A stretch of 64,000 bases of DNA from Blattabacterium cuenoti (GTDB taxonomy: Bacteria; Bacteroidota; Bacteroidia; Flavobacteriales; Blattabacteriaceae). A program made the translations under genes and the position numbers. The DNA lies in NCBI RefSeq assembly GCF_014252435.1, contig NZ_CP059220.1, forward strand, positions 1 to 64,000, read 5' to 3'. This document shows, piece by piece, positions 46,704 through 51,418 of the stretch. The notes under the pieces were generated by a model that ran no database searches, had not been told where the DNA came from, and worked only from the letters and a program-made list of their open reading frames with translations. Positions within the stretch are counted from its first letter, which is position 1. Every line of letters begins with the position of its first letter.

Positions 46704-47903
46704 ATGAATTTATATGAATATCAGGGAAAAGAAATATTAAAATATTTTTCAATCCATGTTCCTAATGGAATAATGGTAAAAACACCGGAAAAAGCTGTTC
46801 AAGCTGCTAAAATTTTATTTCAAAAAACAAATAAAACATCTTTAGTAATTAAAGCTCAAATTCATGCAGGTGGACGAGGTAAGGCAGGTGGAATTAAAAT
46901 AGTAAAATCATTAGATGACGTATATAAAGAATCTACCAATATGTTAGGAAAATATTTATCTACTCATCAAACTTCTAAAAAAGGAATTCAAGTAAAAAAA
47001 ATTTTATTATCTGAAGATGTATATAATTCAGAACCTACTCCTCCAATAGAATTATATTTATCAATTTTATTAAATCGTGAAATAGAAAAAAATATTATTC
47101 TTTATTCCAAAAAAGGAGGAGTTAATATTGAAGATTTATCAAAAAAAAAACCTAATGAAATATATAAAGAAGAAATTGATCCATTATTAGGATTACAATA
47201 TTTTCAAATTAGAAAAATAGCTTTTCATTTAGGTATGGATAATAATGATTCATTAAAAAATTTTCAAAATTTTTTAATGAATCTCGTCAAGGCATATCAA
47301 TATTATAATGCTTTATTAATAGAAATCAATCCATTAATTAAAACATTTGATAATCATATTACACCAATAGATGTAAAAATCATATTAGATGATAATGCGT
47401 TATCTCGTCATAAAATGTATAAAAAAAAATATCATTTCTTTAATAAAATCACAGAATCAAGATCAAAACTTAATTTCGTAAAACTTACAGGAGGAAATGT
47501 AGGATGTATGGTAAATGGAGCTGGATTAGCCATGGCTACTATGGATATGATCAAATCTTGCGGAGGAATCCCTGCTAATTTTTTGGATATAGGAGGAAAT
47601 GCTGATAAAAAAAGAGTGGAAAATGCTTTTTCTCTTATAATAAGTGATAAAACGGTGAAAATTGTATTAATTAATATATTTGGAGGTATTGTAAGATGTG
47701 ATATTGTTGCAAAAGGAATTATTGATTCTTATTCAAAAAAACATAAAAGTTATATAAATCAAATTCCTTTAATTATTCGATTGCAAGGAACAAATGAAAA
47801 ATTGGCTAAATCAATACTTCAAAATCATTTACTATTAATTTATTATGTTTCTTCTCTAAAAGAAGCTTCGGATAAAATTAAAAATATTTTATTTAATAAG
47901 TAA
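46704..47903 (+). CDS. sucC: Succinyl-CoA ligase beta subunit
   Basis: The beta subunit carries the nucleotide-binding ATP-grasp domain of succinyl-CoA synthetase, a substrate-level phosphorylation step of the TCA cycle. The 399 residues begin MNLYEYQGKEIL, contain KAQIHAGGRGKAGGIK, LIEINPL and the C-terminal CoA-ligase half with ANFLDIGGNADKKRV and NIFGGIVRCD. The alpha subunit gene sucD is not adjacent; in Bacteroidota the two are often unlinked. Confidence 0.96.
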   Translation: MNLYEYQGKEILKYFSIHVPNGIMVKTPEKAVQAAKILFQKTNKTSLVIKAQIHAGGRGKAGGIKIVKSLDDVYKESTNMLGKYLSTHQTSKKGIQVKKILLSEDVYNSEPTPPIELYLSILLNREIEKNIILYSKKGGVNIEDLSKKKPNEIYKEEIDPLLGLQYFQIRKIAFHLGMDNNDSLKNFQNFLMNLVKAYQYYNALLIEINPLIKTFDNHITPIDVKIILDDNALSRHKMYKKKYHFFNKITESRSKLNFVKLTGGNVGCMVNGAGLAMATMDMIKSCGGIPANFLDIGGNADKKRVENAFSLIISDKTVKIVLINIFGGIVRCDIVAKGIIDSYSKKHKSYINQIPLIIRLQGTNEKLAKSILQNHLLLIYYVSSLKEASDKIKNILFNK

Positions 47904-48528
47904 AATATTGATTTTAATATAAATGAAAACATTTTTAATCAACTAATTATTGCATAATAAATATCAATATAAAAAATTGAGGAAAATAATTGATTAAAAA
48001 AAATCTTATATATTAAGTTATGTAATGAAAATAATTTGTTTTGAAATATTATTTTTTCATGACCCATATAAAGTTGAAAACAATATATGTACTTATCTAT
48101 TTTGTTATACATAAGATAGAATAATTTATATCAATTAAAAAATATTTTAATATTCTGATTATTCAATCAGTCTTTAAACAATTATGAAAATTATAATATT
48201 ACACAATATATATTTGTAATAATGAAATTTTTTACATTATTATTTTTAATAAAATAAATGAACGTCATTAATTTATGAAAATTACATAAAAAATATATTT
48301 ATATATTATTACTATAATAGATTTGTATCTATCCGAAAAATATTGATATATGATATTTTTTTATGGTTTTTGTTTAAAAATAAAATATAAAAGTAGAAAA
48401 TTTATTATGATTGATATTTTTTCAAATATGTATATAAATATATTGTGTAATAAATAAATATATATAAAAATTTTATGTTTTATTATATTAATTTGAATAA
48501 TATTTAAACTAAACATATAATAATAAAC
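47904..48528 (+). other. Gene-free region between sucC and truncated dnaX
   Basis: These 625 bp lie where the 5' two-thirds of dnaX would be expected. All frames are stop-filled and I could not find any AAA+ motif (no GxxGxGKT or DEVH-like codon string) on either strand. The region is also shorter than the missing coding sequence (about 1 kb), so part has been deleted and the rest has drifted. Confidence 0.6.
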
Positions 48529-49275
48529 GTGTTACAATCTTTTGATTCCTATTTTTTTTTAAAATTAATCAATTCATTATTAGAAGATAATGTAGATAAA
48601 ATCTTTATTCTTTTAAACCATATTTCTCATAAAGAAATCAACTTTAAAAATTTTTTACATGGACTCATTCATCATTTTAAATGTATTTTTCTATCAAAAA
48701 AAAATAAAATAACTTCATTTATCAAATATGATAAAAAAATAATACAACTTTATATTGATCAATCAAAAAAATTATCTTATTTAATGTTGAATCAAGCTAT
48801 AGAAACTTGTATTCATATAATACATAAAAACGATAATTCTAAATTAATGATAGATATATGCATTATTCAATTATCATATATATTTTCTATACAACATAAT
48901 AAAGATATAAATGACTTGAATTTAAATGATAAAACTTATTTAGTCCAAATAATTTGGAAAAAATTTATCAATAAAATTCGAGAAAAAATGAATCCTATTT
49001 ATTTAAATATTTTTGAACGAAGAATTGATTTTCAAATTTTTAATGAAAAAACTTTCTTAGTTTTATCTTCCAAATTAGAAAAAGATGTTGTTATTTTAAT
49101 TCATCATGAATTTAGAAAATTTGTTCAATACGAATTAAAAAGTTCTTTTTTAAAATTTGGAATAATAAGAAAAAGTATTATGGATAAATATCATTTTTTA
49201 TATCAAGAAAACAAATTTTTGGAAAATTTAATAAAAAAATTAAATTTAAGAATATTTTGTTCTTTTTCATCATGA
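48529..49275 (+). pseudogene. dnaX: DnaX (DNA polymerase III gamma/tau) C-terminal part only
   Basis: The 248-residue frame aligns with domain III and the tau-like tail of flavobacterial DnaX: FDSYFFLKLINSLLEDNVDK, then FLHGLIHHFKCIFL, YIDQSKKLSYLMLNQAIE and the helical tail with IWKKFINKIREKMNPIYL. The AAA+ ATPase, Walker A/B and zinc finger are absent, and an in-frame stop lies eight codons before the GTG start, so at least about 350 N-terminal residues are missing. Either the gene is a 5'-truncated pseudogene with a long surviving frame, or DnaX is split and the ATPase half is encoded elsewhere. The frame itself shows no internal damage over 747 bp. Confidence 0.7.
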
Positions 49276-49375: not shown

Positions 49376-51418
49376 ATGATCATAATTTTTTATGGATCTT
49401 ACGGTATAAAAACAACTAGTAACTTTAGTTCTGATATGAGATCTTCAATTCGTAGTAAAACTCCTATTTTAGATAAATTTGGTAAAGATTTAAATATTAT
49501 GGGTCTAAATCAAAAGTTAGATCCTGTAATAGGGAGAAATTTAGAATTAGAACGATTAGCTCAAATATTGAGTAGAAGAAAAAAAAATAATCCATTGTTA
49601 ATAGGAGAACCGGGAGTAGGTAAGTCTGCAATTGTTGAAGGTTTAGCTTTACGAATCGTTCAAAAAAAAATATCTAGAGTACTTTATAATAAACGAATTA
49701 TAGTTCTAGATTTATCAAATTTAGTAGCAGGAACAAAATATCGAGGTCAATTTGAAGAAAGAATGAAGTCTATTATCAATGAATCGGAAAAAAATCCAGA
49801 ATTAATTTTATTCATTGATGAAATTCATACTTTAGTTGGAGCAGGAAGTACTACAGGATCATTAGATGCTTCTAATATATTTAAACCAGCATTAGCAAGA
49901 GGTGAAATACAATGTATAGGAGCTACGACATTGAATGAATATAGACAATATCTTGAAAAAGATGGAGCATTAGAAAGAAGATTTCAAAAAGTCATGATAC
50001 ATCCATCTTCAGAAAATGAAACTATTGAAATTTTAAAACAAATAAAAGGAAAATACGAAAGCCATCATAATGTTATATATACAGAAAATGCAATCAATAC
50101 ATGTGTTTATCTTACTCAAAGATATATTGTAGATCGATTTTTACCAGATAAAGCAATTGATGCATTAGATGAATCAGGGGCTCGTATTCATATAACAAAT
50201 ATAAAAGTACCTCAAGAAATTATTTCTTTAGAAAAAAAATTAGAAAATGTTCGAAAAGAAAAATCAAAAGTAGTAAAAAATCAAAAATATGAAGAAGCAG
50301 CTAAATTACGAGATTCCGAAAAAAATATAGAAAAAGAATTAATTCGTGCTCAAAAAAAATGGGATGAATCTTCTAAAAAGAAAAAAGAAATTGTATATAG
50401 CGAGAATGTTGAAAAAGTTGTATCCATGATGAGTGAAATTCCAATTAGTAGAATTGATCAAAATGAAATGAAAAGATTAAAAGAAATGAAAAATAAATTA
50501 AAAAAACAAATAATTGGACAAGATGAAGCAGTAGAAAAAATCGTTAAATCTATACAAAGAAATAGAACTGGATTAAGAAATTATAATTCACCTATAGGTT
50601 CTTTCATTTTTTTAGGTAAAACTGGAGTAGGAAAAACTTATCTAGCAAAAATATTTTCTCAAGAATTATTTGGTTCAGATGAGTCATTAGTTCGTATTGA
50701 TATGAGTGAATATCAAGAACGTCACTCAATCAGTAGATTAATAGGAGCACCTCCAGGATATGTAGGACATGAAGAAGGTGGACAACTAACAGAAACTATA
50801 CGTCGTAGACCTTATGCTATCATATTATTAGATGAAATAGAAAAAGCTCATCATGATATTTTCAACTTATTATTACAAATATTAGATAATGGATTTATTA
50901 CAGATAGTATAGGAAGAAAAGTAAATTTTAAAAATACCGTATTTATTCTTACATCCAATATTGGAATACAACAATTGAGAGAATTTGGTACTGGCATTGG
51001 ATTTAATACTAAAGCTAAAAAACATGATGATTCTACAAAATATATATTAAAACGTTCTTTAAAACAACAATTTTCTTATGAGTTTTTAAATAGAATAGAT
51101 GATATTATTATTTTTAATTCTTTAAAAGAACAAGATATATATAATATAACTATTATAGAATTAAAAAAAATAATTGATTATATGATGTCATTTATGCAAT
51201 GTCAACTTATTATATCTAATAATGTTCAATATTTTATACAAAAAAAAGGATTTCATCATGAATATGGAGTCCGTCCTTTAAAAAGAGCAATAGAAGAATT
51301 TATAAAAAATCCTATATCGGAATGTATTATAAATGGAAAATTAAAAATAGGACATAAAATTTCTATAGAAATGAATCATACAAAAAATGATACAATTGCT
51401 ATTATTCAGAAAATATGA
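49376..51418 (+). CDS. clpC: Clp protease ATPase ClpC lacking the N-terminal domain
   Basis: ClpC unfolds proteins and feeds them to ClpP. The 680 residues contain D1 (Walker A GEPGVGKS, 77-84; [15 protein letters not shown]), the coiled-coil middle domain with a UVR-like motif (about 285-345), and D2 (Walker A GKTGVGKT, 414-421; [11 protein letters not shown]). A GIGF loop (Ile541-Phe543) fits the ClpP-docking tripeptide. The two-repeat Clp_N adaptor domain, about 150 residues in flavobacterial ClpC, is missing; only the linker before [13 protein letters not shown] remains. The family length is about 850. Both ATPase rings look functional. It overlaps nth by 4 bp. Confidence 0.93.

Follow-up and report, generated by a model that had tools for sequence, protein, structure and literature searches.

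A dnaX gene reduced to an intact, probably selected non-ATPase half in a Blattabacterium genome without a detectable sliding clamp

Domain III of DnaX assembles the clamp loader. In E. coli, DnaX (gamma/tau) of the Pol III clamp loader (1jr3, 8giy) combines this domain with domains I and II, which form the AAA+ ATPase and its lid, and with a C-terminal domain that ends in a conserved helix, and the loader further contains delta and delta-prime and acts on the beta clamp. Much of this machinery can be missing in endosymbionts: dnaN, holA and holB are absent from Carsonella (PMC2175510) and from Portiera of Bemisia tabaci (PMC5322561), in which replication rests on DnaE and dnaX is reported to be wholly absent. 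Some Bacteroidetes have a DnaE1 without a clamp-binding motif, and the part of that survey considered here leaves processivity open and does not link the missing motif to DnaX or to loss of the clamp (PMC3919608). We analysed a window of 64,000 nucleotides (contig NZ_CP059220.1, positions 1 to 64,000) from Blattabacterium cuenoti, a cockroach endosymbiont with a genome of 586 kb (henceforth G000). The frame at its dnaX locus resembles E. coli DnaX in the predicted fold of domain III and in a C-terminal domain with a conserved helix at its end, but has neither domain I nor domain II, and the genome contains no match to delta, delta-prime or the beta clamp. Unlike Carsonella and Portiera, G000 keeps the non-ATPase half of DnaX as an intact frame. 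Whereas loss of the clamp and of the whole loader in endosymbionts is already known, a DnaX that keeps its non-ATPase half alone may be new: a literature search, which did not take in Kinjo 2021, reportedly the principal survey of gene losses across Blattabacterium, returned no dnaX of this kind.

As shown in Table 1, the frame is a single undamaged open frame that lies between sucC and a clpC-like gene, the usual place of dnaX across the genus. Residues 6-124 of its product align with positions 247-368 of the 614 in the NCBIfam DnaX model PRK14971 (E 2e-10), and the match to TIGR02397 covers model positions 240-352 of 355, so that both matches are confined to domain III; the Pfam models did not recognise the fragment. 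Full-length DnaX proteins of the same genus (459-515 aa) are encoded at the same locus, and the fragment is homologous to them along its whole length, their C-terminal halves being 33-42% identical to it, far above chance. The first-pass annotation had read the frame as DnaX reduced to its C-terminal part, with an in-frame stop just upstream of the GTG; both claims were borne out, as domain III and the C-terminal tail are all that is left and the TAA is where it was said to be. ATA codons occupy 48517-48525, upstream of the GTG, and the first in-frame ATG is at 48784, with none earlier, so that translation of the whole fragment needs the GTG or another non-ATG start; we assume that it would begin at the GTG. 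The neighbouring ClpC apparently lacks its usual N-terminal domain throughout the genus: judged by eye, the gene in the window and those at other Blattabacterium loci open with a short low-complexity stretch.

Table 1. Coordinates of features at the dnaX locus, as positions in the window.
Feature	Coordinates	Strand	Remarks
sucC	46704..47903	+	upstream neighbour of dnaX genus-wide
Spacer at the expected place of the AAA+ half	47904..48504	+	12% GC, no detectable AAA+ similarity; relatives have ~700 bp of coding sequence there
In-frame TAA upstream of the dnaX remnant	48505..48507	+	seven codons before the GTG
Stretch between TAA and GTG	48508..48528	+	seven codons; DnaX homology continues; no ATG
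dnaX remnant, open frame with DnaX domain III and C-terminal domain	48529..49275	+	248 aa (248 codons), begins with GTG, lacks the AAA+ module
Domain III (collar), residues 2-124	48532..48900	+	predicted fold like that of E. coli DnaX 242-364
C-terminal alpha/beta domain, residues 129-214	48913..49170	+	predicted model; takes the place that tau domain V has in E. coli DnaX
Extreme C-terminal helix, residues 215-238	49171..49242	+	proposed DnaE-binding tail; conservation within the C-terminal domain is highest here
clpC-like gene	49376..51418	+	downstream neighbour of dnaX genus-wide

In the AlphaFold2 model of the 248-aa fragment (mean pLDDT 72.5) the collar fold of domain III is predicted to be intact, with pLDDT mostly 75-89 and a superposition onto 8giy_D of 1.8 Å over 116 residues (Z 16.6; E. 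coli residues 242-361). For the second predicted domain, the C-terminal alpha/beta domain, the top solved match in a fold search was 4tps_D (Z 8.9), from a complex of DnaA domain I. Searched alone, it gave matches of Z 6-9 to DnaA domain I, to RbfA and to OsmC-like folds, tau domain V not being among the matches listed; a sequence profile of this domain gave chance-level matches only against the PDB.

The ATPase half of DnaX was not found anywhere in the 586 kb of G000 by three kinds of query (TIGR02397, the full DnaX of a relative and a genus-specific AAA+ profile), and neither the frame nor any other place in the genome holds a DnaX-type AAA+ module with Walker A and Walker B. Away from the locus, DnaX and AAA+ queries matched RuvB, ClpX, ClpB and ClpC (the last two identified by length and similarity) and, weakly, FtsY. 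At the place where the ATPase half is expected lies a spacer of 604 bp with 12.4% GC, compared to 16% in the other intergenic DNA of the window, and against the AAA+ profile it scores no differently from shuffled versions of itself. Bacteroidetes-type promoter-like matches in the spacer (2, with 0.7 expected) are not telling. We rejected a sequencing frameshift as the cause of the truncation, as the spacer shows no resemblance to AAA+ in any frame. Since the spacer has about the right length and stands where the ATPase half should be, it most likely represents the AAA+ half rotted in place; this is the simplest reading, with replacement by unrelated DNA as a residual possibility. The zinc finger that the first-pass annotation had expected in the AAA+ part is found neither in the DnaX of the genus nor in seven of the eight free-living relatives inspected.

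Other Blattabacterium DnaX proteins keep the AAA+ module, of which the G000 remnant has none, but have lost Walker B: the DE pair is absent from all 20 full-length proteins, 18 of which also have GKN in place of GKT/S, whereas GKT/S and the Walker B DE pair are both present in the eight free-living DnaX. The partner subunits appear to be missing as well. No match to holA or holB was detected in G000, where PF13177 matched ClpB only, and in 16 Blattabacterium genomes the corresponding profiles matched DnaX and unrelated proteins only, although very divergent delta and delta-prime may escape such searches in either case. The clamp gene dnaN was not found in G000, G009, G010, G017 and G020 (TIGR00663, and a genus profile for all five), and these genomes form one clade in a DnaE tree (support 100/98). 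Clamp-bearing genomes have the order HU, pdxH, dnaN, pheT (pheT identified by sequence start and length), and in the five clamp-less genomes only dnaN is gone from it. The clamp-binding motif Q-x-x-L/M-F of the DnaE linker is present in none of 25 Blattabacterium genomes, compared to six of eight free-living relatives, and loss of both this motif and the Walker B acids across the genus suggests that the DnaX ATPase was probably already idle before the AAA+ half was lost. DnaE itself is intact in all 25 genomes, G000 included, with the possible exception of part of the fused exonuclease in G010, and DnaB, examined in nine genomes that again include G000, is intact in each of them. In G010 (L133) the DnaE frame from its ATG is ~170-200 codons shorter than those of the other genomes and apparently lacks part of the fused N-terminal exonuclease. 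Outside the clamp-less clade, dnaN is interrupted in G002 (L107, L109) and G018 (L101, L108), and a dnaN pseudogene has been published for the Blattabacterium of Periplaneta japonica (PMC6039017).

Whether the remaining frame is under selection was approached by simulating neutral decay (F81-type model, spacer composition, assumed indel ratio 0.08). At 0.01 changes per site 27% of runs still had an undisrupted C-terminal frame, at 0.03 this fell to 2.5% and at 0.05 to 0 of 400, whereas the AAA+ half became undetectable only near 0.3-0.4 neutral changes per site, a comparison that is valid only on the assumption that the spacer derives from the AAA+ half. The fragment has not evolved faster than intact genes: on the DnaE topology its distance relative to DnaE is 2.93, compared to 2.85-3.34 for the full-length dnaX of clamp-less sisters, and it keeps 27 of the 41 residues that are invariant in 15 clamp-bearing genomes, whereas the sisters keep 20-24. 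Conservation is unevenly spread, since less of the domain III consensus is kept in G000 (0.49) than in the sisters (0.53-0.61), whereas conservation of its C-terminal domain and tail equals or exceeds theirs, the tail keeping 10 of 20 consensus residues compared to 5-6, albeit in small numbers. Overall, the quick breakage of the frame set against the slow erasure of the AAA+ half, together with a rate no faster than that of the sisters, suggests that the C-terminal half is probably kept by selection, and the three indirect tests agree in this. The earlier remark that an undamaged 747-bp frame would be unexpected for a freely decaying pseudogene is one that we share, as the state of the frame argues against free decay.

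We considered whether the frame could instead be a transient relic, a large deletion or replacement having lately taken out the AAA+ half, with too little time since then for the C-terminal frame to break. No dnaX is recognisable in G020, the sister of G000, or in G021, so that the gene is dispensable in some backgrounds, and the frame is interrupted in G003 and G022; a recent removal would also leave no positive AAA+ trace in the spacer, as is the case. However, the spacer is about as long as the missing half and its GC content does not exceed that of the other intergenic DNA in the window, as in old neutral DNA, the frame would last only ~0.03-0.05 neutral changes per site, and conserved sites are better kept in the fragment than in the intact sister genes. 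We therefore regard a relic as unlikely, though a reading to be reckoned with. In G021 (L136), dnaX is missing though dnaN is present, and only ~200 bp are left between sucC and clpC.

It is also conceivable that the tau-type C-terminal domain alone matters and that translation starts at the internal ATG, giving a 163-aa product with half of domain III and the polymerase-binding domain. This would agree with 48784 being the first in-frame ATG and with the uneven conservation of domain III and the C-terminal region described above, but the frame is open across the whole of domain III, the predicted fold of which is intact, and an untranslated AT-rich stretch of 85 codons should have gained stops, which makes this improbable. 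The first-pass annotation had proposed a split clamp loader, in which an ATPase half encoded elsewhere would act in trans. An intact frame without its AAA+ half is what such a loader would leave at this locus, but the genome has no DnaX-type AAA+ domain and no beta clamp to load, and published gene lists of Blattabacterium plasmids, on one of which the missing half might have escaped the assembly, name neither dnaX nor dnaN (PMC6039017); we find this hardly credible. The related idea that the frame is the leftover duplicate of a full-length dnaX fails for want of the original, as whole-genome searches of G000 found no second or full-length copy.

We favour, with a probability of roughly 60%, the reading that the frame is a retained functional remnant of DnaX, made up of domain III and the tau-type C-terminal domain, that acts as an ATPase-free tether of the polymerase. 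Loss of the beta clamp gene in the clade would have ended clamp loading, after which the AAA+ half, the catalytic residues of which were already gone across the genus, would have decayed into noncoding DNA. The remnant would probably still oligomerise through domain III and bind DnaE through its C-terminal tail, thereby holding polymerases together or keeping them at the fork; a tether is proposed because the conserved extreme C-terminal helix sits where the alpha-binding element of E. coli DnaX sits. Against this reading stand above all the complete loss of dnaX in G020 and G021, and further the broken frames of G003 and G022, the need for a non-ATG start and the weaker conservation of domain III than in the sisters, which hold our confidence at the level given. 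The wider view, that selection maintains DnaX here purely as a scaffold, with neither ATPase nor sliding clamp, in a clamp-free replisome where the former loader only tethers polymerases and as the last step after DnaX had become a dead ATPase across Blattabacterium, has in our judgement an even chance of being right. If true, it would represent a natural separation of function in which the polymerase-coupling half of DnaX outlives the clamp-loading motor, and would open to experiment the question of how a bacterial replisome that has no clamp replicates a chromosome of 0.6 Mb. The genus may then hold a stepwise series, in which partner subunits, catalytic residues and the DnaE clamp motif were lost genus-wide, then the clamp in one clade, and then the ATPase half in one genome.

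Breaks of the dnaX frame in other genomes fall at runs of A. In G022 (L079) and G003 (L048) the break lies in an A11 run that separates domain III from the C-terminal domain, the latter being intact in another frame; slippage might or might not rescue the frame, or gamma and tau may be made as separate products. In four free-living genomes, G027, G025, G029 and G026 (L050, L051, L053, L055), dnaX ends at 361-363 codons, shortly past a run of about ten A, and the tau-type C-terminal domain goes on in the -1 frame, which suggests that tau is made by frameshifting or slippage in these bacteria.
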